In this document: piece by piece, positions 15,069 through 38,300 of the stretch
Layout of the letters: each line of letters begins with the position of its first letter
Position numbering within the stretch: position 1 is the first letter of the stretch
Origin: Xanthobacteraceae bacterium
GTDB taxonomy: Bacteria; Pseudomonadota; Alphaproteobacteria; Rhizobiales; Xanthobacteraceae
DNA: 38,300 nt
Assembly: GCA_024508855.1 (NCBI GenBank)
Contig: JANINJ010000006.1
Location: 1 to 38,300 of the forward strand
Direction of reading: 5' to 3'
The notes under the pieces: generated by a model
Told to the model about the DNA's origin: nothing
Database searches by the model: none
What the model saw: only the letters and a program-made list of their open reading frames with translations
Program-made: the position numbers and the translations under genes

Positions 15069-15088
15069 GCTCTCTAAGTGGTGATCTC

Positions 15089-20522: not shown

Positions 20523-20603
20523 ATCGATTCCGCTTTTAAGGATGACGACGAGCGCGGCGACGTCAGTCGCCTCGCTCGCCAGAAAGGACAAAAGCGTGCT
20601 GCA

Positions 20604-21845
20604 TCAAGACTTGAAGGTGCAGCCGATCTCCGCCTGACTTCCATAAGCAGCATCAAGGGCCGACGGATCCTTCGGATACTCGCTCTTGATGTCGAAGTAG
20701 TCGTACTTGTCGGTAATCTTCTCCTTGACCTGCGCGACCAGCAACGGCTGCACCAGCTGGTGGTCGAAGTTGCGGAAGAAGATCGGAGCGTCCTTGTAGC
20801 CCTCGAACTTGTGTTCTTCGAGGAAGCTGACCAGCTTGGTCGAGTCGGTGGACTTGGTTTCCTTGATCGCGGTCAGGATCGAGGTCATGCCGAACCAGTC
20901 CTGCCACCCTTCTGCCTCTGGCGGCTGCCCGTACTTCTTCTTGAAGGCCTCGACAAAGTCAGTGCTGCGCTTGGTTATGTGCGCCCCGGTATAGTTCCAG
21001 ATCTTCGGATAAATACCGAACGCGGCGTCGGGACCCGCCGCCCACAGATCGGTGTCGTTTACGATCGGAGCCGACAGCGCCATCTGGTTCGTCAGGCCGA
21101 TTTCCTTCATCTGCTTCAGGAAATTGGTAAGATCGGTGCCGCCGAGACCGACATAGACGACGTCGGGTTTCGCCTGACGCACCTTGAGCAGATACGAGCT
21201 GAAATCGGTGGTACCGAGCGGCGCCTGGTCATAGCCGACCACGTTGCCGCCGTCTTTCACCACCACGTCCTTCATCTGGTTATAGGCGTCGATGCCCCAG
21301 GCATAGGATGCGACGACGAAATACCACTTCTTGCCTCGCTCCTTCAGCAGCGGATAGACGCTGTTGACGGTGACCTTGTTCGGCAGGTCGACACGGAACG
21401 TATATTTGCTGCAGTTCTTGCCGGTGATTTCGGTGGCGTTTGGGCCGGTCGCCATCAGCAGCCGCTGTGCGCGTTCCGCGACCGGCATGATGGCAAGCAC
21501 GTCGCCGCTGGACACACCGCCCTGTACGGCGACGACCTTCTCCTCTTCCACAAGCTTGCGCATGTTCTGCTGAGTCGTCTGCGGCGAAGACTCGTCCAGC
21601 CATATCAACTCGATCGGACGGTCGAGAACATGGCCGCCGAAATCATCGATGGCGACCTGCGCGCCGTGCTGGCCGATTTCGCCCTGCACTGCGTAGGGGC
21701 CGGACTTCGGCAACAACAGGCCCACTTTGACGGCTTCCGCCGCGCGCGCGGTGATGACGAAAGGCGACGCGAGTTGCGCTGCGCCGAAGGTCGCACCGGC
21801 CAATAGGGTGCGACGGCTGATGCCAAATCCGGTGGTCTTGGTCAT
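20604..21845 (-). CDS. HAAT-family substrate-binding protein, Tat-exported
   Basis: A 413-residue periplasmic binding protein of the LivK/amide-urea type (peripla_BP_6). A twin-arginine signal is present: SRRTLLAGATFGAAQLASPFV with Arg11-Arg12, and a likely cleavage after TARA near residue 35. The mature part starts EAVKVGLLLPKSGPYAVQGE, normal for the family. GVSSGDVLAIMPVAER and TYKFRV/YAWGID-type segments fit binders of short-chain amides, amino acids or organic acids. Ligand unknown. Its promoter lies in the region shared with the divergent GH88-like gene, which holds two LacI-type operator sequences. Confidence 0.92.
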   Translation of the reverse strand: MTKTTGFGISRRTLLAGATFGAAQLASPFVITARAAEAVKVGLLLPKSGPYAVQGEIGQHGAQVAIDDFGGHVLDRPIELIWLDESSPQTTQQNMRKLVEEEKVVAVQGGVSSGDVLAIMPVAERAQRLLMATGPNATEITGKNCSKYTFRVDLPNKVTVNSVYPLLKERGKKWYFVVASYAWGIDAYNQMKDVVVKDGGNVVGYDQAPLGTTDFSSYLLKVRQAKPDVVYVGLGGTDLTNFLKQMKEIGLTNQMALSAPIVNDTDLWAAGPDAAFGIYPKIWNYTGAHITKRSTDFVEAFKKKYGQPPEAEGWQDWFGMTSILTAIKETKSTDSTKLVSFLEEHKFEGYKDAPIFFRNFDHQLVQPLLVAQVKEKITDKYDYFDIKSEYPKDPSALDAAYGSQAEIGCTFKS

Positions 21846-24608: not shown

Positions 24609-24657
24609 ACTAGTGCGGCATGGTCCCGATTCAGCAAGGGACCGGCAAGGATACGGT

Positions 24658-25854
24658 ATGGTCGATCTTCTGAAGGGCGTCCGCGTCCTGAGCTTCAATC
24701 ACTTCCTGATGGGCCCGGTCGGTGTGCAGTTCCTCGCCGATCTCGGGGCCGACGTGATCGCGGTGGAGCCGCCGGGCGGCGCGTTCCAGCGGAATTGGAG
24801 CGGCGCCAACAACAAGCGGGTCGATGGTCAGAGCATGCTGCTGCTGGTCGGCAACCGCAACAAGCGGAGCCTGGTGCTCGATCTGAAAAAGCCGGAAGCA
24901 ATCGAGATCGCGCGCAAGCTGATTGCCACCGCCGACGTGCTCACCGAGAATTTCCGGCCCGGCGTCCTCGACAAGCTCGGCCTCGGCTATGAGGCAGCGC
25001 GTGCGATCAAGCCCGACATCATCTACGCCACCGCATCTGGATTCGGTGCCGACGGTCCCTATGTCAACCGGCCGGGGCAGGATCTTCTGGTGCAGGCACT
25101 CTCTGGCCTCGCCACGATCACCGGTACACGTAAGAATGGCCCGCGCGCCGTTGGCGTTTCCGCCGTCGATCATCACGGCGCAGCCTTGTTCGCGGCTGGA
25201 ATCCTCGCGGCGCTGGTAGGGCGGACGACGAGCGGCAAGGGGTGCCGCGTCGACGTCAATCTGCTGTCGGCAGCGCTCGATCTTCAGCAGGAATCCCTGA
25301 CCTGCTACATGAATGGCGAACCTCCGGAGGACACGCGTCAGCCCGAGCATGTCTCCGGCTGGTACTACAGCGCCCCCTATGGCCTCTATGCGACGCGCGA
25401 CGGTCACGTCGCGATCTCACTAAGTTCGCTCGATGTGCTGGGCGATGCGCTTAACCTGCCGGCCGAGCAACGCCTGCCCGACAGCGAGGCGTTCACGCTG
25501 CGGGATGAGATCACCACAGCCATCGCGGCCAATGTCGCGAAACGCACGACAGCGGAATGCGTGGAAATATTCACCGCACGTGGGATATGGCACGCGCCGG
25601 TCAACGATTATTCCAAGCTCGCCGACGATCCGCAGATCGTACACAACCGCAGTTTCCAGACCGTATCGGGCGCGACCGGCGCGCCGATCACCCTCGTCAG
25701 CCATCCGATCCAGTACGACGGGCAGGTCCCGGAGGTGCGGCTGCCACCGCAGCAGCTCGGCGCGCAATCGAATGAGATCCTGAGCGAACTCGGCTACGAC
25801 ACCGACACGATCCGTTCGCTCTACGACAGCCGTACCATCGGTTTGGCATCTTGA
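24658..25854 (+). CDS. family III CoA transferase (CaiB/BaiF/Frc type)
   Basis: About 398 residues from ATG 24658, which has AAGGA seven bases upstream; the frame extends to 24613 without family sequence. LLKGVRVLSFNHFLMGPVGVQFLADLGADVIAVEPP is the conserved N-terminus. VLTENFRPGVLDKLGLGYEA and GFGADGPY follow, and the catalytic aspartate is expected in AVDHHGAALFA (Asp171). It probably converts a free acid of the pathway to its CoA ester using another acyl-CoA. The MaoC-type hydratase gene follows 37 bases downstream, so the acyl-CoA formed may be hydrated next. Transcription appears to be under the LacI-type operator at 24593-24608. Confidence 0.92.
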   Translation: MVDLLKGVRVLSFNHFLMGPVGVQFLADLGADVIAVEPPGGAFQRNWSGANNKRVDGQSMLLLVGNRNKRSLVLDLKKPEAIEIARKLIATADVLTENFRPGVLDKLGLGYEAARAIKPDIIYATASGFGADGPYVNRPGQDLLVQALSGLATITGTRKNGPRAVGVSAVDHHGAALFAAGILAALVGRTTSGKGCRVDVNLLSAALDLQQESLTCYMNGEPPEDTRQPEHVSGWYYSAPYGLYATRDGHVAISLSSLDVLGDALNLPAEQRLPDSEAFTLRDEITTAIAANVAKRTTAECVEIFTARGIWHAPVNDYSKLADDPQIVHNRSFQTVSGATGAPITLVSHPIQYDGQVPEVRLPPQQLGAQSNEILSELGYDTDTIRSLYDSRTIGLAS

Positions 25855-25891
25855 CGTCTTTCCCGCAGCTACCCCGAAAAGGATAATTCCC

Positions 25892-26347
25892 ATGGCCGTC
25901 ATGCATGCCAAGATCGGCGACACCGTCACCTTCTCGAAAACCGTCGGTGAATCCGACGTCTACATGTTTGCGGGGCTGACGGGTGACCTGTCGCCGAACC
26001 ACGTCGACGAGCAGTTCATGAGCCACTCAATGTACGGCCATCGTATCGCGCACGGTGCGCTGCTGGTCGGCTTCATGTCGAATACATCGACCCGCATGAT
26101 CGAGGAGAGCCTGAAGAAGGGCATCGACTCGACGCCGGTATCGCTCGGTTACGATGGCATACGTTTCCTTAAGCCGGTGTTCTTCGGCGACACCATCACT
26201 GTCAGCTATACGATCAGCGAGATCGACGAGCCGCGGCGGCGCACTCTCGCCTCTATCGAGGTCAAGAATCAGCGCGGCGAACTGGTTGCGGTCGCCAAGC
26301 ACATCACGAAGTGGACCGAGAACGTCACCGTCCGCCCCGCGGCCTGA
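25892..26347 (+). CDS. MaoC-family (R)-specific acyl-CoA hydratase/dehydratase
   Basis: A 151-residue single hot-dog domain. The active-site segment FAGLTGDLSPNHVDEQF carries the catalytic Asp32 and His37 of the (R)-hydratase motif, followed by RIAHGALLVGFMS, the hot-dog helix. It should add water across a 2-enoyl-CoA or catalyse the reverse. AAGGA precedes the ATG. It is cotranscribed with the CoA transferase at 24658 and faces the convergent cyclase gene 14 bases away. Possible substrates are short branched or dicarboxylic enoyl-CoAs; nothing in the sequence decides this. Confidence 0.92.
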   Translation: MAVMHAKIGDTVTFSKTVGESDVYMFAGLTGDLSPNHVDEQFMSHSMYGHRIAHGALLVGFMSNTSTRMIEESLKKGIDSTPVSLGYDGIRFLKPVFFGDTITVSYTISEIDEPRRRTLASIEVKNQRGELVAVAKHITKWTENVTVRPAA

Positions 26348-26361: not shown

Positions 26362-27186
26362 TCACGCGATGGCGACAGGCCGGATCGGTGAACCGGTCGC
26401 GCCGGTCAGCCGCAACGGCAGCGCCACAAATAAAATGCGCTGCGGACGTTTCCGCGCGATTTCCTCGAGATTGAGATTCTCGATGATGTGGATGCCGGCA
26501 TCCACTAGCAGAATGGCATGAACCGATACGCCGGGGGTAGGCAGGCACTCGAAACCGGGCGTATCCGATCCCATCAATGTCACGCCGCGCTCGATCAGCC
26601 AGCGCGTCGCTTTCTCGCCGGGACCTGGCATGCCGCCGCGACGACCGATGAACATTTCCGCATCCGTCCAATACTTCGACCAGCCGGTGCGGATCAGCAC
26701 CGCATCGCCCGCCTTGATCGCCGCCCCACTCAGCGCGAGCGCGGCCTCGACATCGGCGACGGTGATCTCCTGCGCGGGCGCGAGACAGTCGACGCCCTTG
26801 GCCGCGGCAACGTCCAGCACCACCGCGCCTTGCAGGATCGGCGGAATATCGGCGACCGAATGCTCACGATAGCCGTCCCGCGTCTCGACATCGGCGACAT
26901 GAATGCCGCCGTGCAGGCAGCCGTTCCGCGAGAAATGGCCGAGTGCATCGATATGCGTCCCGGAATGGCCGGACGTCACGATCACTTCGTTGGCGAAACT
27001 CGATCCGTCTTCACGCTTTGCTGGGTGCGGATCGCCATGTCGACGATGCAGCGCCAACGAGAAGGGAATGTGCTGGTGATATACCGGCATGGACGGCGCC
27101 ATCGCATGCGACAGTTCATAGAGCTGCGCACCCGCCGCAACCGAACTCAAAATGCCCGCATCGAAGCGCGGCAACTTGCTGTCCAT
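26362..27186 (-). CDS. cyclase-family metal hydrolase (kynurenine formamidase-like)
   Basis: About 274 residues from ATG 27186, which has GGAAGTGGA just upstream; the frame to 27288 runs antisense-like through the end of the dehydrogenase gene. The metal-binding signature of the cyclase/KynB family is intact (HSGTHIDALGHF, 74-85), with YELSHAMAPSMPVYHQH before it and AVLIRTGWSKYW after it. Family members hydrolyse amide, ester or lactone bonds; KynB cleaves N-formylkynurenine and isatin hydrolase opens isatin. Length exceeds KynB (about 210), fitting the longer cyclase subgroup. It is 22 bases after the aldehyde dehydrogenase gene and so likely part of its operon. Confidence 0.9.
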   Translation of the reverse strand: MDSKLPRFDAGILSSVAAGAQLYELSHAMAPSMPVYHQHIPFSLALHRRHGDPHPAKREDGSSFANEVIVTSGHSGTHIDALGHFSRNGCLHGGIHVADVETRDGYREHSVADIPPILQGAVVLDVAAAKGVDCLAPAQEITVADVEAALALSGAAIKAGDAVLIRTGWSKYWTDAEMFIGRRGGMPGPGEKATRWLIERGVTLMGSDTPGFECLPTPGVSVHAILLVDAGIHIIENLNLEEIARKRPQRILFVALPLRLTGATGSPIRPVAIA

Positions 27187-27208
27187 TTCCACTTCCTTCC
27201 GTATCGAA

Positions 27209-28747
27209 TCAGACGCCGATCTTCGGAGCCCGATGCTTGTCGAGACCGATGGCAATGTTCTTCTGCTCCATGTAGATCTCGAACGCATAGTCGCCGCCGT
27301 CGCGCCCGATGCCGCTGGATTTGACGCCGCCGAACGGGGTCGGCAGATGCCGCACGTTTTCCGAGTTCACCCACACCATACCGGCCTCGACGCTCTGCGC
27401 CACGCGGTGAGCGCGGCCGACATCGCCGGTCCAGATATAGGCTGCGAGACCATAGCGCACATCGTTGGCGATGCGCAGCGCATCCGCCTCGTCCTCGAAC
27501 GGGATCACGGTTAGAACCGGCCCGAAGATTTCTTCCTGCGCGATCTTCATCGCGTTCTTCGCATCGGTAAACAGCGTCGGGCAGACGAAATTGCCCTTGC
27601 CATCCATCGCGCGTTTGCCGCCAGTCGCGATGGTTGCGCCGTCCGCTTTGGCGTGCTCGGCGTAGCTCAGCACCTTCTCGGCATGGCGGGAATGAATCAG
27701 CGGCCCGATCTCGGTCGCGGGATCAAGCGGATGGCCGACCTTGATCTTCTCGACCCGAGCCTTCAGTTCGGCTGCGAACTTGTCGTAGATCGAGCGCTGC
27801 ACCAGCGCGCGGCTCGACGACGTGCAACGCTGGCCATTGAGACTGTAGATCATGAACAGCACGGCGTCGCGGGCGCGGTCGAGATCGGCGTCGTCGAACA
27901 CCACCACCGGATTCTTGCCACCCAGTTCGAAGTGCACGCGCTTCAGCGTTGGCGCGCCCTGCGCCATGATGTGGCTGCCAGTGATCGACTCGCCGACGAA
28001 GGCGATCGCCTTGATCGCCGGATGCTCGGTCAGCGCCTTGCCGGCGCTCTCGCCGAAACCGTGCACCAGATTGACGATGCCCTTGGGCAGGCCCGCACCC
28101 TCGAACACCTCGCTCATGATCTCCGACAGGATCACCGCGGTCAGCGGGCTCCACTCGGCCGGCTTGTGCACGATGGTGCAGCCAGCCGCGAGCGCCGGCG
28201 CAATCTTCCAGGTCGACAGCATGAACGGCGTATTCCACGGCGTGATCACGCCGACCGGCCCGATCGGCTGCCGGATGGTGTAATTGAGGTGCGTCTCGGT
28301 CGGCAGCGACAGACCGTCATTGGCTTCCGGTGCCTTGTCGGCATAGAAGCGGAAATTCTCGGCGCCGCGCAGCGCTGCCTTCGCCATGTAACGGATCGCC
28401 TGCCCGCTATCGGTGCTTTCCACCAGCGCGATCTCTTCGGCACGGGCCTCGATCTTGTCGGCAATATTGTGCAACAGCGCGCGACGCTTTTCGCCGGGCA
28501 CCGTGCGCCAGACCTTGAACGCTTCTTCCGCCGCGCGGGCCGCGCGATCGATCTCGGCCGCGCCGCCTGACGCCACGTTGCACAGCACCGAGTTATCGCT
28601 CGGGTCGTAGTTTTCGAACGTTTCCGCACCGGTTACCGCCTCCCCCGCAATACGGTGCGGCACGGGACCGCTCCTGAAGCGGGCCAGGAAGGTTTGCGCC
28701 TTGCGCAGATTGTCGGTCAGGGCGTCATTGGCGAGAGGCTTGTTCAT
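27209..28747 (-). CDS. aldehyde dehydrogenase (HpaE / 2-aminomuconate-semialdehyde dehydrogenase type)
   Basis: A 512-residue NAD(P)-dependent dehydrogenase from ATG 28747 (AGGAGA six bases upstream). ITPWNTPFMLSTWKIAPALAAGCTIVHKPAEWSP is the cofactor region, FELGGKNPVVVF holds the general base Glu274, and NGQRCTSSSR the nucleophile Cys308. The NGQRCT context and C-terminal GVKSSGIGRDGGDYAFEIYMEQKNIAI are typical of dehydrogenases acting on ring-cleavage semialdehydes such as 5-carboxymethyl-2-hydroxymuconate semialdehyde (HpaE) or 2-aminomuconate semialdehyde. With an extradiol dioxygenase in the same gene set, it probably oxidises that enzyme's product. A dyad lies in its upstream region at 28829-28840. 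Confidence 0.9.
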   Translation of the reverse strand: MNKPLANDALTDNLRKAQTFLARFRSGPVPHRIAGEAVTGAETFENYDPSDNSVLCNVASGGAAEIDRAARAAEEAFKVWRTVPGEKRRALLHNIADKIEARAEEIALVESTDSGQAIRYMAKAALRGAENFRFYADKAPEANDGLSLPTETHLNYTIRQPIGPVGVITPWNTPFMLSTWKIAPALAAGCTIVHKPAEWSPLTAVILSEIMSEVFEGAGLPKGIVNLVHGFGESAGKALTEHPAIKAIAFVGESITGSHIMAQGAPTLKRVHFELGGKNPVVVFDDADLDRARDAVLFMIYSLNGQRCTSSSRALVQRSIYDKFAAELKARVEKIKVGHPLDPATEIGPLIHSRHAEKVLSYAEHAKADGATIATGGKRAMDGKGNFVCPTLFTDAKNAMKIAQEEIFGPVLTVIPFEDEADALRIANDVRYGLAAYIWTGDVGRAHRVAQSVEAGMVWVNSENVRHLPTPFGGVKSSGIGRDGGDYAFEIYMEQKNIAIGLDKHRAPKIGV

Positions 28748-28821
28748 GTCGCTCTCCTGTCGGATCTGATGAAACGTTGGCACGATGACCATAAACAGCA
28801 ATGCCATTTCACGGTCGCTGG

Positions 28822-28840
28822 AATATATTTAACTTGTTAA
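28822..28840 (-). promoter_or_regulatory. TTAAC-TT-GTTAA dyad with TATATT box upstream of the aldehyde dehydrogenase gene
   Basis: The AT-rich palindrome TTAAC-TT-GTTAA (28829-28840) lies about 80 bases before the dehydrogenase start, in a 132-base gap. On the minus strand it is followed at once by TATATT (28827-28822), a plausible -10 box. The dyad would then fill the spacer of that promoter, a usual place for a MarR- or GntR-type repressor. I found no clear -35 box, and no such regulator gene is in the window. Confidence 0.45.
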
Positions 28841-28879
28841 GTATCTACTCGCAAGCCCTTTGATGCCGTCCGCTGTGGC

Positions 28880-30481
28880 TTATTTCACAGTCAACGTTCC
28901 GTCGGAAAAGACGACCTCACCGCCCACAAACGTCAGCCGCGCCCGCGTCACCTCGATCTCCTCGGGTGCCAGCCCCAGAATGTCACGATCAAGCACGGCG
29001 AGATCGGCAAACTGACCGACTGCAATACGCCCACGGCGCTGCTCGTGCCCCATCACGAAGGCACCGCCTTCGGAGTAGGCGGCGAGCGCCTCGTCTACAC
29101 TGAGCGCCTCCCCGGCGTTGAGCACCAGCCCGTTAGCCGCCTTGCGGTCGATCGCGGCGGCAATCCCGAGGTAAGGCGACAGCGGCCCGATCGGATGATC
29201 CGAACTTCCGGCTACGGCTATTCCCGCGTCGAGCAGCGTTCGTCCTGGATAGAGCCGCTGCGCACGCTCGCCCCCGACAGCGTCGGCGAATGACGCGCCG
29301 AGTCTGCGCAGGAAGCCGTATTGAGGAACGACCGCGGCGCCGAGCGCCCGCACCTGCGCAACGGCCTGGGGACCGCGGACCGCAAAATGCTCCACGCGAT
29401 GGCGTGCGTCCTCGCGGGGCCAGGCACGATGCGCTGCTGCCAGACAATCCAGCCAGTGCTCGATTCCACGATCGCCGATCACATGCGCAGCGAGTTGCCA
29501 TCCGCAGGCGTGACCGTCGATCACTTTGGCGCGCAGGTCGGGCGGGGGCTCCATCAGAAGGCCGGACGTGGCACGATCCGCATAGGGTTCGAAGAACGCG
29601 GCAGTCCGCGCCCCGATGATACCGTCGACAAAGAATTTCAGCGCCCGCACCTGCCAGCGATCATCGACGCCGGTCGGCGCCAGCCCATGCTCGCGCGCTT
29701 CGGCCGGATCGATGCGCAGCATGAATCCCATGCGCAACGGCAGGCCGCCCTCATCACGCAATGCGTTCCAGATGTCCCATTCGACCTTGAAACCGTTATT
29801 GAAGCCGACCGCCGCCTCGGTCACGGCGACGATGCCGTAGCTCAGGCATTCGTCGGCCACCGTTCGGATCGCGGCGATGGTTCGCGCCGTGGATGGCGGC
29901 GGGATCAATGCTGCGACGATATCCGCGGCATTCTCGGTCAGCACGCCGGTGAGGCTGTTGTTGTCACGCTCGATGGTGCCGCCGGTCGGATCGGGCGTTG
30001 TCGCGTCGAACTGCGCGCGTTGCAGTGCCGCCGAATTGGCGACCGAGAGGTGGCCGCCGGTGCGTCGCAGCAGCACCGGCCGCTCGCCGGATACGGAATC
30101 CAGCTCCTCACGGGTCGGATGGCGGCGTTCGTCGAGAAACTGTTCGCTGTAGTCGGCCGACATCACCCATTCACCCGGCGATGCAGCGTCGCATGCGGTG
30201 CGCAACCGCTTCAGCAGTTCGGGAATATTTTTGGCACCGGGGCCTAGTTGCAGATTTAACAACTCCTGCGCCCGCATGAACAGATGTGCGTGGGCATCGG
30301 TGAGACCCGGCACGACGCGACTATCCTGCAGATCGATGGTGCGATCAGCAAACGGCGCATCCTTCGCCCGCCCGATCCAGGCGATGCGCCCCGCTTCGAT
30401 CAGCAGGCTATCCACGCTATCCTGCGCGACGGTCGTGAGACGGCCGCCGCGCAAAAGCGTCCTTGTCGTCTCAGACGGCAT
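28880..30481 (-). CDS. amidohydrolase family protein (YtcJ/amidohydrolase_3 type)
   Basis: A 533-residue metal-dependent hydrolase. The first metal-binding motif is VVPGLTDAHAHLF (His64, His66). LVLRRTGGHLSVANSAAL and GWQLAAHVIGDRGIEHWLD carry later active-site residues, and SSDHPIGPLSPYLGIAAAI the catalytic aspartate. The C-terminal beta-sandwich (RRGRIAVGQFADLAVLDRDIL) is also complete. YtcJ-type proteins hydrolyse N-substituted formamides or other amides, but substrates are mostly unknown. It starts 11 bases inside the RidA gene, so the two are cotranscribed. The pairing with an imine deaminase suggests nitrogen removal from a pathway intermediate. Confidence 0.9.
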   Translation of the reverse strand: MPSETTRTLLRGGRLTTVAQDSVDSLLIEAGRIAWIGRAKDAPFADRTIDLQDSRVVPGLTDAHAHLFMRAQELLNLQLGPGAKNIPELLKRLRTACDAASPGEWVMSADYSEQFLDERRHPTREELDSVSGERPVLLRRTGGHLSVANSAALQRAQFDATTPDPTGGTIERDNNSLTGVLTENAADIVAALIPPPSTARTIAAIRTVADECLSYGIVAVTEAAVGFNNGFKVEWDIWNALRDEGGLPLRMGFMLRIDPAEAREHGLAPTGVDDRWQVRALKFFVDGIIGARTAAFFEPYADRATSGLLMEPPPDLRAKVIDGHACGWQLAAHVIGDRGIEHWLDCLAAAHRAWPREDARHRVEHFAVRGPQAVAQVRALGAAVVPQYGFLRRLGASFADAVGGERAQRLYPGRTLLDAGIAVAGSSDHPIGPLSPYLGIAAAIDRKAANGLVLNAGEALSVDEALAAYSEGGAFVMGHEQRRGRIAVGQFADLAVLDRDILGLAPEEIEVTRARLTFVGGEVVFSDGTLTVK

Positions 30482-30866
30482 CCTTCACCACGGCGATCAT
30501 GTCGATCTCGATCTTCAATCCGGCACGTGCGAGATGCGCCACCCCGACTGTCGTGCGCGACGGCGGGTCCTTCGGAAAGTATTCGCGGAACACTTCGTTC
30601 ATTGCGGCGAATTCATTCATCATGTCGGTCATGTGAATGGTCATCTTGAGCGCGGTGTCGAGCGAAGCGCCGCCGGCTTCCGCGAGCGCCTTGACGTTGT
30701 CGAGCGCGATACGGGTCTGCGCCTTGATATCCTCTGGGAATTCGCGGGTCACCGGATCGGAGCCCGTTTGACCGGAGATGAACAGCAACTTGTCCCAGCG
30801 GATCGCGGGCGAATACGGAATCCCTGCGCGGAGGCCGGTGGGCGGAACGACGACGGTACGTGACAT
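30471..30866 (-). CDS. RidA-family protein with catalytic arginine
   Basis: A 131-residue RidA/YjgF/UK114 fold protein. YSPAIRWDKLLFISGQTGSDP, KAQTRIALDNVKALAEAGGASLD and the C-terminal PPSRTTVGVAHLARAGLKIEIDMIAV are family hallmarks. Arg104 (SRTTVGV) occupies the position of Arg105 in E. coli RidA, needed for enamine/imine deaminase activity, so the protein can be catalytic. 2-Aminomuconate deaminases of aminophenol pathways also belong to this family. AAGGAA precedes the ATG. It is placed between the importer ATPase and the amidohydrolase, overlapping the latter by 11 bases. Confidence 0.92.
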   Translation of the reverse strand: MSRTVVVPPTGLRAGIPYSPAIRWDKLLFISGQTGSDPVTREFPEDIKAQTRIALDNVKALAEAGGASLDTALKMTIHMTDMMNEFAAMNEVFREYFPKDPPSRTTVGVAHLARAGLKIEIDMIAVVKDAV

Positions 30867-30896
30867 GTGCTTTCCTTCTTCAGTAAATGCGTCGAT

Positions 30897-31649
30897 TCAA
30901 GTGTCGGTCGCGATTTCGCGATAGCGATCACCCGCGCCGAGATAGGCCGCGAGTACGCGCGGATCTTGCCGGAGATTGTCGGCATCGCCCGAGGCGACGA
31001 CATTGCCGACCTCGAGAACGAAGCCGCGATCGGCTACCGACAGCGCCAGATGCGCATTCTGCTCGACCAGAATGCCGGTCATCCCCGCGGCCTTGAGCCG
31101 GTCGATGGCTTCGAAAATTTCCTCGGTGATGCGCGGTGCCAGCCCTGTAGAGGGCTCATCGAGCATCAGGAGCTGCGGCTCGGCCATCAGCGCGCGGCCG
31201 ACGGCGACCATCTGCTGCTCGCCACCCGACAACGTGCCCGCAAGCTGTCGCCGCCGCTCCTTCAGCTTCGGCAGCAGCGCATAGATGCGATCGAGCGCCG
31301 ACGCCATCCTGGCGCGCCCTTCTCGGCGTCGCAGGAACGCACCAAGCCGCAGATGGTCCTCGACGCTCAGTCCGGGAAACAATTCGCGCCGCTCCGGTAC
31401 GATGACGATGCCTCGCGCCACACGCGCTTCGGGCTTGAGCGTCTTGAGATCCTCGCCACCGAACGTCACGGTGCCCGACTTCTGCTGGAGAACACCCATC
31501 AGATTGTTGAGCAATGTCGTCTTGCCGGCTCCGTTCGGGCCGATGAAGGTGACGAACTCGCCGCGTGCGACTGAAAAGCTGATGCCGTCAAGGGCGATGG
31601 CCTCGCCGTAACCGACCGTGAGATTTGCAACGTCAAGCAGCTTTGTCAC
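30897..31649 (-). CDS. livF: LivF-type ABC transporter ATPase
   Basis: A 250-residue HAAT ATPase. Walker A is GPNGAGKTT (37-45), signature LSGGEQQ (140-146), Walker B LMLDEPSTGL, and the switch LVEQN with Gln-Asn, as usual for LivF. IVPERRELFPGLSVEDHLRLGA is the LivF hallmark stretch. The start is GTG 31649, with GGAGG five bases before it. It overlaps the end of the fused LivM-LivG gene by 17 bases and completes the second importer of the window. Confidence 0.93.
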   Translation of the reverse strand: MTKLLDVANLTVGYGEAIALDGISFSVARGEFVTFIGPNGAGKTTLLNNLMGVLQQKSGTVTFGGEDLKTLKPEARVARGIVIVPERRELFPGLSVEDHLRLGAFLRRREGRARMASALDRIYALLPKLKERRRQLAGTLSGGEQQMVAVGRALMAEPQLLMLDEPSTGLAPRITEEIFEAIDRLKAAGMTGILVEQNAHLALSVADRGFVLEVGNVVASGDADNLRQDPRVLAAYLGAGDRYREIATDT

Positions 31650-33396
31650 GGCTGCCTCCGAGATACGCTGAAATCACCGCCGGATTGGCCTGCACATCCT
31701 TCGGAGAACCTTCCGCGATGATCTTGCCGCGATCAAGCACCACCAGACGCTCCACGCATCCCATCACCAATTCCATGTCATGTTCGACCAGCAGGATGGT
31801 GACGTGCTCTGCCTGAAGCTGTCGCAGAATCTTGACGAGCGTCAGTTTCTCCGAGAAGCGCAGCCCCGCGGCCGGTTCGTCGAGCAGAAGGATCTGCGGA
31901 TCGGCAACCAGCGCACGCGCAATCTCGACGATGCGTTGCTTGCCGAGCGGCAGGCTGCCAGCCGCGAGATCGGCTTCCGCAGCAAGCCCCACGCGTTCCA
32001 GCGCGGCGCGCGCACAGGCAAGTGCCCTGCGGTTTTCCTCCGCGTCGAGCGCAAACAACCCACGAACGAAACCGGCCCTGGTCCGGCAATAGGCGCCGAG
32101 CGCGACATTCTCGATCACCGAGAGGTCGGACATCAGTTGCACATGCTGGAAAGTGCGCGCCATGCCGCGTTGGACGAGCGTATGCCCGGCGGACAACGGT
32201 TCACCGAATAGTGTGACACGGCCGGCAGTCTGACGCTGCAGGCCGGAAATGATGCTGAACAGCGTCGTTTTACCGGCACCATTCGGGCCGATCAGTCCGA
32301 CGAATTCACCGCGCTTCAACTCCATGCTGACGCCTTCGAGCGCCTGCAGGCCTCCGAAACGAATGCCGATGCCATCCAGCCGCAGCAGAACTTCACTGCG
32401 ATTCCCGGTCAATACCGAGCGCGGCAGCCCATGGCCCTCGCGGCTGCGCAACGACGGCTTGGGCAGGAATTTCTCCACCGCAGGCCACAGGCCTTGCGGC
32501 CATTTCAGCAGCATTACGACGAGGATGACACCGAACACGATAACTTCGAGATTACCCGATAAGCCCCAGCGCGCGAGCACGTCCTGCAACGTCCACTGCG
32601 CACTCTCCATAGCCAATGCGCCCACCACACCGCCCGCCGCACTCATCGGCCCGCCAACCACAGCCATGATCAGCAGTTTGAAGGATGTCAGCAAACCGAA
32701 CGGCGATGGACTGACAAACCGCAGCAGATGGACGTAAAGCGCACCGCCGAGTGCCGCCAGTACTGCCGAGAATACGAATACCTTGACGCGCAACACCGTC
32801 GTGTCGACGCCAAATGCCTGCGCCAGGCCATCGTGCGCTTCTAGCGTAGCGATGGCCCGCCCCGTCCGCGACGTGCGCAGCCGCGACAATCCCAGCACTG
32901 CAAGCAGTGTGACGATCCAGATCAACTGGGTATAGAGCCGATCATCGGTGATTTCGAAACCGAACAATCGAAGCGCCGGGATCTTGTCGAGGCCCGATGC
33001 ACCGCCGGTGACTTCGTGCCAAGCGGTGAACAGGCTTGCCAGCGCAATCCCATAAGCCAGAGTCGCCAGTGGCAGGTAGTGCCCGCGCAGCCGCAATGTG
33101 ATGAATCCGATCAGCGCCGCAACCAGTGCGGTCGCGCAGACACTCATGATCAGCGTGATCATTGTATCGATGCCGTAAGCCCGGGCCACCAGCGCCGAAC
33201 CGTAGGCCCCCAACCCCATGAAGGCGCCTTGCCCCAGCGAAATCTGTCCGGCCTGCAACAGCAGAACGAGACCGACCGCGACCAATGCATAGATTCCGGC
33301 ATACGCAAAAATGCCGACATAGAACGACGGCAACAACCACGGAACGACCAGAAGAACAGCGCTCACGGCGAGCGCGAGCTTGGCGCGGGCGCTCAT
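31633..33396 (-). CDS. livM: fused LivM permease + LivG ATPase
   Basis: A 587-residue fusion. Residues 1-305 form a LivM-type permease (LLLQAGQISLGQGAFMGLGAYGSAL; EVTGGASGLDKIP; FVFSAVLAALGGALYVH). Residues 335-585 form a LivG-type ATPase: Walker A GPNGAGKTT (370-378), FQHVQLMSDLSVIENVALG, variant signature SLPLGKQRIVEIARAL (481-496), Walker B ILLLDEP (502-508), H-loop LLVEHDMELVM, tail AVISAYLGG. Such two-part fusions are known in alphaproteobacteria. The ATG overlaps the livH stop by four bases. The importer has its binding protein, LivH and LivF on both sides, and lies within a ring-cleavage gene set, so it likely brings in the aromatic substrate or a related acid. Confidence 0.93.
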   Translation of the reverse strand: MSARAKLALAVSAVLLVVPWLLPSFYVGIFAYAGIYALVAVGLVLLLQAGQISLGQGAFMGLGAYGSALVARAYGIDTMITLIMSVCATALVAALIGFITLRLRGHYLPLATLAYGIALASLFTAWHEVTGGASGLDKIPALRLFGFEITDDRLYTQLIWIVTLLAVLGLSRLRTSRTGRAIATLEAHDGLAQAFGVDTTVLRVKVFVFSAVLAALGGALYVHLLRFVSPSPFGLLTSFKLLIMAVVGGPMSAAGGVVGALAMESAQWTLQDVLARWGLSGNLEVIVFGVILVVMLLKWPQGLWPAVEKFLPKPSLRSREGHGLPRSVLTGNRSEVLLRLDGIGIRFGGLQALEGVSMELKRGEFVGLIGPNGAGKTTLFSIISGLQRQTAGRVTLFGEPLSAGHTLVQRGMARTFQHVQLMSDLSVIENVALGAYCRTRAGFVRGLFALDAEENRRALACARAALERVGLAAEADLAAGSLPLGKQRIVEIARALVADPQILLLDEPAAGLRFSEKLTLVKILRQLQAEHVTILLVEHDMELVMGCVERLVVLDRGKIIAEGSPKDVQANPAVISAYLGGSRDKAA

Positions 33397-34418
33397 CGTC
33401 TCGCCTCCACGCGTGAACGCGTATTGCGCCAGAGCAGAATCGGGATGAGCAGGCTGAACACCAGTACGTCACGATAGGCGCTCGCAACGTAGGCCGAGGT
33501 CGATTCCAGGCCGCCGACGATCATCACACCTACGAGCGACAGCGGGTAATCGATCAGTCCGCCCATGGCGCCGCCGACAAAGCCCTTCAACCCGACCATG
33601 AAGCCCATCTCATAATTGGCCGTGATGAGCGGCGCGAGCAACATGCCGCTGACTGCGCTGAACGCAGCCGCCAACAGGAACGCCAGCGCGCCGGTCATGT
33701 TCACCGGGATGCCGCAGAATTGCGCGCCAAGCCGGTTCATCGCCGAAGCCTGCAAGGCCTTGCCGAGCAACGTGAACTCCGAAAACACATAAAGACCGCC
33801 CATCGCCAGCAGCGCGGTGATCAGGATCGCGAAGCTCTGATAGGGGATGAACACCGGACCCATCATCAGACCACCGGCCGCGATCGGATCTACCGGATAG
33901 GGATTGGCGCCCCAGATCAGCAACGCAACGCCCTGCAGGCTCATCGACACGCCGACCGAGATGATGACGAATACGATCGTCGTCGCATTTGGAATCGGAT
34001 GCACGGTGAAGCGATAAATAAGAGCGCCGAGCGGCGCGACCAGAATCAGCGCGACCAGCATCATGCCGATGACCGGCAAATGCAGCGCCAGTGCGCAACG
34101 CGTCAACGCCAGCGCGGCGACGCCCGCAACGATCAATCCCGTTGTGTAGAGCAAGGCCTGTCGCCAATCGCGCCGCCAGCGGCCGGCGTCCAGAACGATA
34201 CACAGCACAAGTCCACCGATCAGGAGATACAGCGTGCCGGGCATACGTCCCTGCAATAGATCGGCGAGCGTGAGCGCGCCGAGCATCACGTACTCGCCCT
34301 GTGCGATGTTCACCACACGCGTAACGGTGAACACCAACACAAGGCTGAGCGCGAGCAGCGCATAAACAAGGCCGTTGGTCAGACCATCGACCAGAAGAAA
34401 TAGAACGGTGTCGATCAT
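33393..34418 (-). CDS. livH: LivH-type ABC permease with extra internal segment
   Basis: A 341-residue HAAT permease. VDGLTNGLVYALLALSLVLVFTVTRVVNIAQGEYVMLGA is the conserved N-terminus. SAMNRLGAQFCGIPVNMTGALAF and VGLKGFVGGAMGGLIDYPLSLVGVMIVGGLE are the cytoplasmic loop and C-terminal region. It is about 50 residues longer than usual. The extra length lies around residues 60-125, where two more hydrophobic stretches flank a basic loop (DAGRWRRDWRQALLYTTG). It follows the binding-protein gene by three bases and overlaps the LivM-LivG fusion by four. Confidence 0.92.
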   Translation of the reverse strand: MIDTVLFLLVDGLTNGLVYALLALSLVLVFTVTRVVNIAQGEYVMLGALTLADLLQGRMPGTLYLLIGGLVLCIVLDAGRWRRDWRQALLYTTGLIVAGVAALALTRCALALHLPVIGMMLVALILVAPLGALIYRFTVHPIPNATTIVFVIISVGVSMSLQGVALLIWGANPYPVDPIAAGGLMMGPVFIPYQSFAILITALLAMGGLYVFSEFTLLGKALQASAMNRLGAQFCGIPVNMTGALAFLLAAAFSAVSGMLLAPLITANYEMGFMVGLKGFVGGAMGGLIDYPLSLVGVMIVGGLESTSAYVASAYRDVLVFSLLIPILLWRNTRSRVEARR

Positions 34419-34421
34419 ACC

Positions 34422-35603
34422 TTACTTGGATTCGTAGAGGCGAAATTCACCGTTCTTTACCACGGAGATGAACGTGCTCCGCTGATCAAGGCCGAGATGA
34501 TCGGTGGGGCTGTAGTTGAAGATACCACCAACGCCGACGAACTCCTTGATCCCTTCGATCTTGTCGCGGAGCGCCGCACGCGAAGCGTCGAGATCGTCGA
34601 GCTTCCCGCCAGCCTTCACGACCTCCTCGGCCGCCTTCAGCGCGATATTGCCGGCATCCCAGGACTGGCCGGGGAATATATCGACCTTCGGCACGTTGAA
34701 GCGCTTCTCATAGAGCGCGGCGAACTTGGCGATCACCGGCTTCAGCGGATTGCTGTCCGGCAGATCAGTGTAGACCAGCACCGGCGTGGTGCCCAGCAAC
34801 GCGCCCTCGACATCCTGCTTGCCGATCGAGATGAAAGCGTTGTTGGCGGAGCCGCCCGAGTGATAGATCGGTCCGGAATAGCCGACGCGCTTGAGCGCCT
34901 GATGTACCAGCGCCGAGGACGGCGGAATGGCGTGGATATAGACTGCACCCGGATTGGACTGACGCACCTTAAGGGCTTGCGGAGTGAAATTGGTGTCGGT
35001 ACGCGAGAAGCGTTCGGACGCTACGATCTCAACGCCCTTGGCCTTGGCGACGCTCTGTAGCGCGATCCAGCCGCCTTCGCCGAAGGAATCTTCAAGGCCG
35101 AGGAACGCGACCTTCTTGATGCCGCGTTTCACCATGTCGTCGACAAGGCCAGAAACTTGAAGCTGGTCGGTGCTCGGCGTCTTGAATATCCAGTGACGAT
35201 CCTTCACCGGCTCGATCACGCTCTGTCCCAGAGCGAGCGAAATGTTCGGCACCTTGGCCTGCGTCACCGTTTCGAGAATCGCCATCGAGGTCGGCGTGGT
35301 GCTGCAGCAAATCACCACATGAACCTGATCCTCGGTAATTAGCTTACGGACGTTATTGACGGCCTTCGTCGGATCGGATGCGTCGTCATAGGTGATGAAC
35401 TTGACGGTGAACGGCAGGTTCGTGTCTTTCGCGATCTGCTCCTGCAGCAATTCCAACGCATTCTTTTCCGGCAGGCCGAGCGCCGACGCCGGGCCGGTCA
35501 TCGCCACCACCGAACCGATACGCAATTCCGGTTTGTCGGTAGCAAATGCCGTAGCCGACATAGCCAATGCGGCCAGAGCAGAAACGACTGAAATAACTCT
35601 CAT
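34422..35603 (-). CDS. livK: HAAT-family periplasmic substrate-binding protein (LivK-like)
   Basis: A 393-residue binding protein with a Sec signal peptide (VISVVSALAALAMSATAFA, likely cut after residue 21) and mature start DKPELRIGSVVAMTGPASALG. VRKLITEDQVHVVICCSTTPTSMAI and SFGEGGWIALQSVAKAKGVEIV fit the peripla_BP_6 fold. GGGGAG lies upstream of the ATG. It differs in sequence and export route from the Tat-type binding protein at 20604, so the two importers are not recent duplicates. Ligand is unknown; position within the dioxygenase gene set suggests an aromatic or related acid. Confidence 0.92.
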   Translation of the reverse strand: MRVISVVSALAALAMSATAFATDKPELRIGSVVAMTGPASALGLPEKNALELLQEQIAKDTNLPFTVKFITYDDASDPTKAVNNVRKLITEDQVHVVICCSTTPTSMAILETVTQAKVPNISLALGQSVIEPVKDRHWIFKTPSTDQLQVSGLVDDMVKRGIKKVAFLGLEDSFGEGGWIALQSVAKAKGVEIVASERFSRTDTNFTPQALKVRQSNPGAVYIHAIPPSSALVHQALKRVGYSGPIYHSGGSANNAFISIGKQDVEGALLGTTPVLVYTDLPDSNPLKPVIAKFAALYEKRFNVPKVDIFPGQSWDAGNIALKAAEEVVKAGGKLDDLDASRAALRDKIEGIKEFVGVGGIFNYSPTDHLGLDQRSTFISVVKNGEFRLYESK

Positions 35604-35716
35604 ATTTCACTCCCCAATAAAATCGACGGAACGGAATCTGCGACGGAAGCGGAAGGTATTAGGCGATACAAACCGCTTTCATCCGATGATTGTTGATGGC
35701 GTCTTCTTTGTGCGTC

Positions 35717-36730
35717 TCAGTCGAGAACGTAGGTCGGTACCGCCGGCAACAGCGGCGGTTTGGTCTCCTGCATTGCTGTGCCATCGAACGTTTCCACGGC
35801 CATTGCCTCCTCGAACCATCGGCGCGGCGGCGGCGCTCCCCATAGCGTCTGCCGCACCGGATTGTTGAGATTCCAGCGGATCGGCTCGGCCGCGGTGTTT
35901 CCGGTGAGATAGTCGCCGGTATAGAGCTCGAAACGGTTGCCGTCGGGATCGCGCACATAAACGAATAGCGCGTTGGAGATACCGTGACGCGCGGGGCCGC
36001 GCTCAAGGCTGTCGGCATAACCAGCGCCCGCGAGCATATCGCAGGCGCGGATGATCGAGAGCGTATCGGGCAGCGAGAATCCGACGTGATGCGCGGCCGG
36101 TCCGGCTCCGGTCATCACCGCAATGTCATGCACTGTCGATTTGCGGAACAGCCAGCTTGCCCAAATCCGCTTCTCCGGCGGATCGGATTCGGTCAATTCA
36201 GCGCAACCGAAGCCCAGCTCCTGTGTGTACCACTCGTAACCCGCCTGCGCGTCCGGCGTCAGCACATTGGCATGATCGATGCGGGTCGGCGAAGCGCCCT
36301 TGTGCAGGTGATACTGCTGCACCAGCCATGGCACCGGGGCGATCTCGGCGTAGTAATCGATAATGAAGCCGAATGGGTCCTGCACGCGCAGCGTACGGCC
36401 CTGTCCCAGCATTTCGTTGCCGGCCCAGCGTGTCTGCAGACCCAGTTCCTCGAAGCGAAGCTTCATGCGGTCCAGATCGCCCTCCTCAGCCACCATGAAG
36501 CCGATATGGCCGACGCCGGCAGAGTCCGCCTTGCGCAGCACGAACGTGTGATGCTGCTTGTCCTCGGTGCAGCGCAGATAGACGCGATTGTCGTCGCGGG
36601 CGGTCTCGTGCAGGCCGATCAAATTGACGTAAAAATCACGCGCCCGCTCGAGATCGGTGGTGCGGAATTCGATATGTCCCAGCTTCTGGATGTTGGCGAT
36701 ATCCTTGATGCGGCCAGCGCTCACTGTCAT
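35717..36730 (-). CDS. extradiol ring-cleavage dioxygenase, VOC fold (HPCD-type)
   Basis: A 337-residue two-domain vicinal-oxygen-chelate dioxygenase. The pattern of active-site residues matches homoprotocatechuate 2,3-dioxygenase (HPCD, Brevibacterium): metal ligands in RIDHANVL (His153), AAHHVGFS (His214/215) and GNRFELY (Glu268), with second-sphere TVHDIA (His201), ARHGISN (His249) and FVYVRDPDG (Tyr258). The C-terminal tail EPIRWNLNNPVRQTLWG...WFEEA is also that of HPCD-type proteins. It should open a catechol-like ring next to one hydroxyl using Fe(II) or Mn(II) and O2. Substrate may be homoprotocatechuate or a relative. GTG 36724 is a possible alternative start. Confidence 0.92.
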   Translation of the reverse strand: MTVSAGRIKDIANIQKLGHIEFRTTDLERARDFYVNLIGLHETARDDNRVYLRCTEDKQHHTFVLRKADSAGVGHIGFMVAEEGDLDRMKLRFEELGLQTRWAGNEMLGQGRTLRVQDPFGFIIDYYAEIAPVPWLVQQYHLHKGASPTRIDHANVLTPDAQAGYEWYTQELGFGCAELTESDPPEKRIWASWLFRKSTVHDIAVMTGAGPAAHHVGFSLPDTLSIIRACDMLAGAGYADSLERGPARHGISNALFVYVRDPDGNRFELYTGDYLTGNTAAEPIRWNLNNPVRQTLWGAPPPRRWFEEAMAVETFDGTAMQETKPPLLPAVPTYVLD

Positions 36731-36881
36731 CCCCTTGCTCGTTGTGGCGGCAGGCTCCGGACCGGAACCCCGCCGCCAGGCGGCTCGATACGCCCCCGCA
36801 GGTTACCGGCCCGCCGGGAGCCGTCTGTATCACCTGCTACCAACCGCAGACATTCTTTGCCTCAATCGCCCGGCCGGAGCG

Positions 36882-37295
36882 CTATTTCGGCGTGTAGGCG
36901 ACCGCCTTGATCTCGATGACGAGGCCCGCCCGCGCCAGCCCGGCGATTTCAAGGATGGTCCAGGTCGGAAACGGCTCGCGGATATAGCGACTCTTGATCT
37001 CGACGAACTTGCCGAGATGGTTCTGCAGACCGACGTGGTAACTGACCAGTTCTACGATATCGTCGAGCGAGGCGCCGGCTTCCTCCAGCACGATCTTGAG
37101 CCGGTCGAAGGCATTGACGATCTGACCCTCGTCATTTTCCGGCATGGTGCCATCCGGATTGAGGCCGATCTGGCCCGCGACATAGAGAAACTCGCCCGCC
37201 CGCACCGCCGGTGAATAGCCGAACTTCTTGAAGATCGTCGAACCGTCCGGGGTCGCGAAGATCGGATTGGTGGAGTTGATGGCCTGCTTTTTCAT
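36882..37295 (-). CDS. RidA-family protein lacking the catalytic arginine
   Basis: A 137-residue RidA-fold protein: FGYSPAVRAGEFLYVAGQIGLNPDG, IVNAFDRLKIVLEEAGASLDDI and LARAGLVIEIKAVAYTPK are conserved. At the place of the RidA catalytic arginine the sequence reads FPTWTILEI, with Trp112. It is therefore not a canonical imine deaminase and belongs with the Rid4-7-like groups of unknown or other hydrolytic function. GGAG is eight bases before the ATG. It follows the flavin-dependent oxygenase gene by 21 bases, so the two are cotranscribed. Confidence 0.91.
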   Translation of the reverse strand: MKKQAINSTNPIFATPDGSTIFKKFGYSPAVRAGEFLYVAGQIGLNPDGTMPENDEGQIVNAFDRLKIVLEEAGASLDDIVELVSYHVGLQNHLGKFVEIKSRYIREPFPTWTILEIAGLARAGLVIEIKAVAYTPK

Positions 37296-37316
37296 TATTT
37301 GTCTCCGTGGTCAAAA

Positions 37317-38300
37317 TCAGATGCGCGCGGTTGGCGGCAGCGGCAGATCGAGCAGCAGGCGACCATATGGCTCGCCGATCGCATCGGGCTGCAACAGCAT
37401 GTGGCTGCTCATGGCATGGACGTCGCGAAACAGCCGCTCGATCCGCGTCCCGCTCGGCAGCACCGAGCCGCCGAGCGCCGCAAACAGACGCTGCGCCGTC
37501 TGCAGGGCGAGTCGAGACGCGACAGCAAAGCGCGTACGCATCGCGGCGCGCTCAATCAGGCTGACATGACCCGCGCGCGCGGCTTCAATGATCTCATCCG
37601 CATCGTCGAGCAGCGTCCGGCGCAGGATCGCCATCGTTGCCTCGCTGGTCGCGGCCTCGATCTGCGCGACACGGTCCTCCACCAGCGCCTTCTGCGCCGC
37701 CGGGCTGACCTTCGCCTTGACGATAGCGCGAAACTCTTCCGCCACCGCTGAAGCGACACCCAGCGTCGGCGCCAGTGTGGACATGGCGTTGATCGGATTG
37801 AGTGGCGCGGCGGTGATGGCACCATGTTGCGGGCAGGTCGGATGACACCCTCCGTCCTGCAGCACTTGCCAGCTCATCCAGCGATGCGCGGGCACGAACG
37901 TCTTGGTCAGCGCGATATCCTTGCTGCCGGTGCCGCGCATCCCGAGCACGTTCCAGCTTCCCTGATCGACCGCGAAAGCATCCGCCGGCACCAGCACCAC
38001 ATGCGGCACCATCTGCCCGTCGATCGGGATCGGCACCAGAAGGCCCGCCCAGGTGGCGACATCGATGCCGGAAGCATAGCGCCAGCGGCCGCTCAGCAGC
38101 ACACCGCCTTCCACCGGCTCGGCCAGGAGATCCTGCCCGACGCCACCGGTCAGAAGGGAAACGATCGTGGGCTTACCGGAAAGAAAGACATCGCGCTGCG
38201 CTTCCGCGGAGAACTTGCCGATCATGACCACGTTGGCGCTCGACAGACCGAGGATCCAGGCCGTGGACGAACAGCCGCGCGCAATCTCATAAGTCGCCTC
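37317..38300 (-). CDS. flavin-dependent oxygenase of the acyl-CoA dehydrogenase fold (HsaA / p-HPA hydroxylase C2-like), partial
   Basis: The frame is open to the window edge; the N-terminus lies beyond 38300, and the 327 or so visible codons are the C-terminal four-fifths. IARGCSSTAWILGL, VLLSGRWRYASGIDVATW and GMRGTGSKDIALTKTFVPAHR are the diagnostic stretches of group D two-component monooxygenases, which share the acyl-CoA dehydrogenase fold but use reduced flavin from a partner reductase to hydroxylate phenols. The C-terminal helical domain (AALGGSVLPSGTRIERLFRDVHAMSSH) is complete. Upstream of the HPCD-type dioxygenase gene, it could supply the catechol by ortho-hydroxylation. No reductase gene is visible; the first GTG/ATG codons inside the window are not the start. 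Confidence 0.85.
   Translation of the reverse strand, partial: EATYEIARGCSSTAWILGLSSANVVMIGKFSAEAQRDVFLSGKPTIVSLLTGGVGQDLLAEPVEGGVLLSGRWRYASGIDVATWAGLLVPIPIDGQMVPHVVLVPADAFAVDQGSWNVLGMRGTGSKDIALTKTFVPAHRWMSWQVLQDGGCHPTCPQHGAITAAPLNPINAMSTLAPTLGVASAVAEEFRAIVKAKVSPAAQKALVEDRVAQIEAATSEATMAILRRTLLDDADEIIEAARAGHVSLIERAAMRTRFAVASRLALQTAQRLFAALGGSVLPSGTRIERLFRDVHAMSSHMLLQPDAIGEPYGRLLLDLPLPPTARI

Follow-up and report, generated by a model that had tools for sequence, protein, structure and literature searches.

A conserved homoprotocatechuate-type gene cluster with added amide-hydrolase and RidA genes in a Xanthobacteraceae genome

Eleven consecutive minus-strand genes in a 38,300-nucleotide stretch of a Xanthobacteraceae genome (GenBank assembly GCA_024508855.1, 5.16 Mb in 107 contigs; contig JANINJ010000006.1, here C6:1-38300, the whole of which we call the window) form an upper module of the homoprotocatechuate (3,4-dihydroxyphenylacetate) meta-pathway, extended by amide-hydrolase and RidA genes. 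We think it rather probable that this meta-cleavage module has been adapted to a nitrogen-bearing relative of 4-hydroxyphenylacetate: its products probably take up an aromatic compound and cleave the ring along a modified version of a known route, and the additional enzymes seem capable of nitrogen removal. It is a real, conserved and apparently undescribed variant, with nitrogen-related genes, of a pathway class that is itself known; among the matches listed in the open-access literature, we found no description of the cluster, of amino-hydroxyphenylacetate cleavage, or of the candidate operator described below. Residues of drugs, dyes, and pesticides make it important how bacteria strip nitrogen from aromatic rings, and the cluster offers a dedicated pathway context for RidA-fold proteins.

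Families were assigned from the sequence by NCBIfam/TIGR and Pfam profile searches against curated cut-offs and by sequence searches of the Protein Data Bank (PDB). The original prediction named a gene family for each of the eleven genes, and an open reading frame (ORF) scan of the window recovered all of them, intact, closely spaced, and on the minus strand. It also took the hydroxylase, dioxygenase, and dehydrogenase as early homoprotocatechuate steps, which the profile scores bear out for the latter two and support in type for the hydroxylase. The extradiol dioxygenase (35717..36730, minus strand) scored 370 bits against TIGR02295 (HpaD, cut-off 321) and also matched PF00903, making it a VOC-type enzyme, and its nearest solved structures by sequence were homoprotocatechuate 2,3-dioxygenases (HPCD). 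Equivalents of HPCD H155, H214, E267, H200, Y257, N157, and W192, which we take to be metal ligands and acid-base residues, were kept in 23 of 23 rows of the clade to which it belongs (clade A, below). The aldehyde dehydrogenase (ALDH; 27209..28747, minus strand, 512 aa) scored 784.6 bits against TIGR02299 (HpaE, cut-off 638), retained the GQRC and ELGGK motifs, and was the sole ALDH above the HpaE cut-off in the whole genome.

The lower pathway genes HpaF, HpaG, HpaH, and HpaI were not among the genes scanned around the cluster (C6:11356-48349), and the original prediction had deaminase- and amidase-type genes replacing them. This part of it did not stand: contig C8 carries HpaH, HpaF, HpaD, and an FAH-family HpaG-like gene, with no HpaE above cut-off, and contig C87 (70001-88000) carries a second HpaH, a near-cut-off HpaI, and a 2-hydroxymuconic semialdehyde dehydrogenase (875 bits, cut-off 693). 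Within the genome, HpaF was found only on C8 (at 1e-25) and HpaI-like genes only on C87 and C8 (at 1e-40). The C87 region is a further catabolic cluster that also holds an Amidohydro_3 gene and, by eye, HAAT genes. We read the window's cluster as an upper module because HpaF, HpaD, HpaH, and the HpaG-like gene lie on another contig and its ALDH is the only HpaE above cut-off; since lower hpa genes occur in its own genome and near the cluster in relatives, the deaminase- and amidase-type genes are additions, not replacements.

A scan of 84,980 species genomes for the dioxygenase, which used peptide patterns and is hence not exhaustive, returned 39 loci, of which 22 belong to clade A (L041-L061, L064), eight are canonical, and nine were omitted (L071, a fragment of this type covering 69 residues, and L072-L079, whose matches were weak or incomplete). 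Clade A dioxygenases are 60-97% identical to that of the window, the next matches reaching at most 49%, and in a 61-row tree the window and its 22 relatives (23 rows) stood alone on one side of one branch (100/99). The type looks rare, since the best match outside the own genome among 297 genomes sampled from the same order was 49% identical. Its hosts are Bradyrhizobium and relatives, a Nitratireductor metagenome-assembled genome (MAG), Cupriavidus, the Alcaligenaceae Achromobacter, Castellaniella, Candidimonas, and Parapusillimonas, and MAGs named to family level or above. Clade-specific changes were seen in the alignment, for example at HPCD positions 205, 206, 246, 254, and 256; R293Q was dropped as a mark of specificity, as the canonical rows themselves carry Q (31) or A (7) there (n = 38).

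All 22 clade A loci contain a gene for RidA2 (30471..30866, minus strand, in the window): in 12 it comes immediately after the dioxygenase, and in ten importer genes separate the two. This pairing is more than chance, because the two genes recur together across 22 loci at 60-97% dioxygenase identity. An ALDH was present in 19 of the 22 (L045 is cut off before it, and L057 and L061 have none within the stretch), and the hydroxylase and RidA1 (36882..37295, minus strand) were both present in 12, both absent from the stretch in nine, and beyond reach in L045, which was too short. These counts are subject to some limits: L045 begins inside the dioxygenase and L056 just upstream of it, the near-identical pairs L048/L050 and L058/L059 are not independent, and the composition-based gene caller missed some short genes. 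One locus, L057 (Candidimonas nitroreducens), has a 4-hydroxyphenylpyruvate dioxygenase gene (11482-12513; 285.6 bits, cut-off 277) between RidA2 and RidA1.

Canonical HpaD loci served for comparison. No RidA was detected (tblastn E <= 1e-6) in 29 such loci, taken with flanks of up to 1.5 kb (two shorter on one side), all of which carry an HpaE-like ALDH 65-78% identical to the window's, nor in nine further loci, most with longer flanks. Five annotated plasmid operons (L093-L097; hpaF, hpaE, hpaD, a fumarylacetoacetate-hydrolase-family gene, hpaH, and an HpaI-type aldolase gene) likewise showed no RidA beside HpaD in their gene tables, which are incomplete; L093 has one about 7 kb from HpaD, next to an alanine racemase gene. 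Plasmid-borne close copies in known degraders were sought and the idea dropped, all 95 matching plasmid records being below 60% identity; among the 30 of these matches listed, 27 were annotated as 3,4-dihydroxyphenylacetate 2,3-dioxygenase and three had no annotation. This pattern bears on one alternative, that the cluster is a second homoprotocatechuate operon of the ordinary kind within a mixed catabolic region, with the YtcJ, cyclase, and RidA genes in unrelated roles. The annotated surroundings (C6:11356-48349) are indeed rich in importers, CoA-transferases, and hydrolases, but RidA2 and the dioxygenase are found together in Alpha- and Betaproteobacteria alike, mostly with the importer, and one repeat is common to the upstream regions of importer, hydroxylase, dioxygenase, and reductase genes; we regard this explanation as highly improbable.

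Two of the window's genes encode putative amide hydrolases. The first, a YtcJ-type amidohydrolase (28880..30481, minus strand), scored 319 bits against Amidohydro_3 and has an intact DAHAH motif. The second is a PF04199 cyclase resembling isatin hydrolase and kynurenine formamidase (26362..27186, minus strand, 274 aa), which scored 113.5 bits against the family model (cut-off 23.1), keeps the metal motif HSGTHIDALGH, and fell below the cut-off of the arylformamidase model TIGR03035 (50.9 bits, cut-off 223); its PDB matches were an uncharacterised protein first, then, weakly, isatin hydrolase B (1.6e-9) and kynurenine formamidase. Among 15 loci examined gene by gene, six carried YtcJ (in L054 the match is in two pieces), six an amidase (PF01425 in 6 of 6), three neither within the stretch, and none both. 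The swap may mark one shared hydrolytic step, since linuron degraders use both families on one aryl-urea herbicide, hydrolysed by the YtcJ-like HylA or the amidase-family LibA in the available text of PMC8406775.

Such alternation among lineages would also agree with a plain amide route, in which an amide or amino-acid conjugate of 4-hydroxyphenylacetate is hydrolysed and then degraded by the ordinary homoprotocatechuate pathway, with RidA only clearing imines formed from ammonia or amines and the ring-cleavage aldehyde. The HpaD and HpaE scores and the presence of lower hpa genes also agree with this explanation, which we hold to be conceivable though unlikely, as RidA was detected in none of the 38 canonical HpaD loci searched, where ammonia would be expected too, and RidA2 is kept throughout clade A, beside the dioxygenase in 12 loci.

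The adapted module that we favour instead gives the RidA proteins steps of their own. Both matched PF01042 (RidA2 99.8 bits, RidA1 77.7 bits). The arginine equivalent to R105 was present in every RidA2 row reaching that position, and a tryptophan replaced it in all RidA1 rows; in RidA and TdcF, according to the available portion of PMC4433059, this arginine binds carboxylates and is required for imine hydrolysis. RidA1, which matched the 2-aminomuconate deaminase structure 6izh at only 3.5e-10, follows the hydroxylase, and RidA2 follows the dioxygenase, an arrangement that suggests two separate steps. Nine other RidA1 relatives were found at 1e-22 in 398 genomes of the phylum (36-47% identity). 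The 47% relative, which also has tryptophan at the arginine position, adjoins a BenC gene above cut-off, a benzoate-dioxygenase-like gene just below cut-off, and a muconate cycloisomerase gene, and the 42% relative lies in a region reading by eye as housekeeping; as neither neighbourhood names a substrate, these relatives were dropped as a guide to function.

Among relatives, 19 of 20 genomes with a clade A locus carry HpaF (PF02962; threshold 0.001, the weakest best match having E 6.1e-35), whereas in the window's order it was detected at 1e-25 in 19 of 150 genomes, the own one included. The cluster ALDH, with contig positions matched by hand, was the only HpaE above cut-off in nine of 20 relatives; of the other 11, nine had a second, one (L057) had its only one elsewhere, and one (L061) had none. 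Both counts leave out L052 and L045. Lower hpa genes lay near the cluster itself in L054, L060, and (HpaF only) L055. In Parapusillimonas granuli the order is importer, amidase, dioxygenase, RidA, RidA, and ALDH, with CRP, HpaI, HpaH, HpaG, HpaG, HpaF, and HpaR on the other strand. The Nitratireductor MAG has HpaF, an HpaG-like gene, HpaH (352 bits, cut-off 351.5), and an HpaI-like gene (347, cut-off 369) 4-7 kb from the dioxygenase, and in a Castellaniella MAG the cluster is followed by HpaF and a succinate-semialdehyde-dehydrogenase-like gene (553 bits, cut-off 646). The original prediction had named, as evidence against itself, homologues already characterised as a complete homoprotocatechuate pathway with lower genes in the same operon: lower genes do lie near the cluster in homologues, adjoining it in P. 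granuli, and no experimentally characterised homologue was found among the matches listed in the open-access literature searched.

Lower genes near the L054, L055, and L060 clusters suit a C8 carboxymethyl intermediate and not the C6 product of a further candidate route, which passes through 4-aminocatechol. That route would begin with hydrolysis of an N-acyl-4-aminophenol and hydroxylation to 4-aminocatechol; the HpaD-type enzyme would then open the ring, HpaE would oxidise the product, and RidA2 would remove the amino group. Such a step order has been proposed for Pseudomonas capeferrum TDA1, in which, as far as the available text of the reports goes, hpaD, hpaE, a RidA-type aminomuconate deaminase gene, and hpcE rise with 2,4-diaminotoluene, significantly with succinate also present and with adjusted p >0.05 on 2,4-diaminotoluene alone (PMC8854710, PMC7118221). 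The choice between HylA and LibA in linuron degraders also resembles the YtcJ/amidase swap (PMC8406775, in part). We nonetheless judge the 4-aminocatechol route improbable.

For the adapted homoprotocatechuate module, we infer the order of steps, the substrate, and the RidA reactions as follows. The HAAT importer would take up an amide, to be hydrolysed by YtcJ, by the cyclase, or by both (in other lineages by an amidase); the two-component flavin hydroxylase would then yield an ortho-hydroxylated ring, with RidA1 probably serving this step. The HpaD-type dioxygenase would open the ring, the HpaE-type dehydrogenase would oxidise the semialdehyde, and RidA2 would hydrolyse the enamine or imine next to a carboxylate, releasing ammonia and 5-carboxymethyl-2-hydroxymuconate. 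If its substrate is 2-amino-5-carboxymethylmuconate, the product would be the substrate of HpaF, after which HpaF, the HpaG-like enzyme, HpaH, and an HpaI-type aldolase, encoded elsewhere in the genome, would lead to pyruvate and succinate semialdehyde. Judged by its genes, the cluster would best fit an N-acylated aminophenol analogue of 4-hydroxyphenylacetate, or its amide. In its most specific form, the proposal is that the VOC-type dioxygenase cleaves an amino-hydroxyphenylacetate derived from its N-acyl form, that RidA2 deaminates 2-amino-5-carboxymethylmuconate into the homoprotocatechuate lower pathway, and that a CRP-family regulator acts on GTAT-N6-ATAC; this we offer tentatively, as a doubtful but workable combination. 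The original prediction's nitrogen-containing aromatic substrate is retained as a class to which the recurrent linkage with RidA and amide-hydrolase genes points. An N-heterocycle, which it had included, is the least supported class and was dropped, no heterocycle-specific gene having been recognised among the genes scanned.

The inverted repeat GTAT-N6-ATAC, a candidate CRP-family operator, occurs 37 times in a 76-kb region and the 22 clade A loci, being seen in 20 of these (not in L045 or L046), whereas 20 first-order Markov simulations averaged 0.5 occurrences and never gave more than 2; because some loci are near-identical, the observed occurrences are not independent. Thirty-one of the 37 lie upstream of a hydroxylase, binding-protein, dioxygenase, reductase, or (L056) LivF-like gene, 53-131 bp from the nearest start; the other six do not, two of them (L054) lying near a TRAP binding-protein gene, ahead of HpaF. 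In the window's contig and in ten relatives, a conserved CGTAT-N6-ATAC precedes the hydroxylase. Of the strict form GTATC-N4-GATAC, the 22 loci hold 25 copies, and 43 canonical control loci (344,539 bases) gave two loose matches and no strict one. At the cluster itself, one site (35656..35669, no strand) lies 59 bp upstream of the binding-protein gene and a second, beyond the window (C6:38599-38612), upstream of the hydroxylase. The whole genome holds 15 sites, the same pattern read backwards giving five; two of the 15 are at the cluster, and five of the 13 others were inspected, all inside called ORFs. A CRP-type regulator binding this repeat probably controls the cluster, a pairing to which the form and neighbourhood of the repeat point.

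The original prediction suggested a search for a reductase and a regulator just beyond 38300, and both are there. The hydroxylase gene (group D flavin hydroxylase, oxygenase component; 37317..38300, minus strand) extends 249 bases past the window, to C6:38549. A CRP-type regulator gene (longest ORF 38525-39331, plus strand) probably has its true start further inside the ORF, which otherwise overlaps the hydroxylase start; it separates the hydroxylase from a flavin reductase gene (within ORF 39341-40024, minus strand; PF01613, nearest FerA and HsaB), and a second CRP-type regulator follows (39936-40634, minus strand). The hydroxylase is nearest to the HsaA model (192 bits, cut-off 450) and, by sequence, to structures of HsaA-type hydroxylases.

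Several observations weigh against the adapted module. The equivalents of HPCD R243 and R292 are conserved in both dioxygenase clades, and the sequence is thus no proof that the enzyme accepts an amino compound. RidA2 is closer to archetypal RidA than to 2-aminomuconate deaminase, which was not among its 39 PDB matches at 1e-12, and it could instead have a damage-control role. The hydroxylase scored 134 bits against the p-hydroxyphenylacetate 3-hydroxylase model (cut-off 650), nine clade A loci lack it nearby, and two HpaB-type hydroxylases are encoded elsewhere in the genome, so that it is not the sole candidate 4-hydroxyphenylacetate hydroxylase. Among the lower genes, the HpaG-like candidate (180.7 bits, cut-off 276.4) and the C87 HpaI candidate (349.8 bits, cut-off 368.8) are below cut-off, and the HpaF background covers the window's order only, while clade A spans Betaproteobacteria too. 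The L061 genome has neither HpaF nor an HpaE above cut-off, and for this reason its member may feed another route; there, dioxygenase and RidA2 stand with a hydantoinase A-type gene and a CRP-type regulator (4659-15978). As for regulation, L046 lacks the repeat, both sites at the own cluster are of the loose form with one half-site imperfect, and the genome scan turned up no copy on either C8 or C87; co-regulation of the lower genes is therefore not visible in this genome, and their membership in the same regulon in this genome was dropped.

The remaining genes of the cluster, all on the minus strand, encode the complete HAAT importer that the original prediction had assigned to it: a periplasmic binding protein (34422..35603; Peripla_BP_6, 162 bits), a LivH-type permease (33393..34418), a LivM-LivG permease-ATPase fusion (31633..33396), and a LivF-type ATPase (30897..31649), with two BPD_transp_2 and two ABC_tran domains in all. 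Comparison with L047 places the starts of the cyclase and ALDH nearer 27186 and 28747 than the longest ORFs, which reach 27288 and 28807. The cyclase end is adjoined, on the opposite strand, by genes for a family III CoA-transferase and a MaoC dehydratase (24613-26347). Another HAAT importer in the window (16238-21845) has one permease and two ATPase domains fused in an 834-residue ORF and adjoins an ArsR-type regulator and an AHSA1-domain protein. Beyond the window, a second unit (L009, C6:40705-46707) holds an alpha/beta hydrolase, another YtcJ-type amidohydrolase, and HAAT permease and ATPase genes; such a unit adjoins the cluster in the near relatives L041-L044 and L047 and was not seen in L049, L051, or L052.

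Among known systems, the 2-aminophenol and 3-hydroxyanthranilate pathways (amn, nba) follow the same logic as the cluster, with a dioxygenase, a semialdehyde dehydrogenase, and a RidA-fold deaminase in series. Their dioxygenases are LigB-type or cupin enzymes, whereas that of the cluster is VOC-type HpaD; RidA2 keeps the conserved arginine yet is nearer archetypal RidA, and RidA1 lacks it. Their RidA-fold deaminase is exemplified by AmnE (PDB 6izh; available part of PMC6742747). The 2,4-diaminotoluene route of P. capeferrum TDA1 likewise places HpaD, HpaE, and a RidA deaminase in its proposed series (PMC8854710, PMC7118221), but the available text of these reports states that no complete pathway operon was found (PMC8854710) and describes its HpaD as of the LigB superfamily (PMC7118221), and by locus tag the deaminase gene (05035) lies away from hpaDE (05110-05115). 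The cluster's hydroxylase shares the oxygenase family of the HsaA/HpaH-type two-component flavin hydroxylases, and its reductase is similar to HsaB and FerA; it differs in falling below the curated cut-offs of the matched models and in its pairing with RidA1. With the homoprotocatechuate pathway (HpaD-HpaE-HpaF-HpaG-HpaH-HpaI), the cluster shares its HpaD and HpaE matches, the dioxygenase active-site residues, and lower genes in its own genome or near the cluster in relatives. HpaR was seen beside the cluster in L060, the one locus where it was looked for. The cluster departs from that pathway in having its lower genes outside the region scanned and its dioxygenase in a separate clade, and it adds RidA genes, YtcJ and cyclase or amidase, the HAAT importer, and CRP-type regulators. 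Genes for amide hydrolysis, RidA-fold proteins, and ring cleavage accompany those for the importer, hydroxylase, and regulators in Bradyrhizobium relatives and, with an amidase, in Alcaligenaceae.

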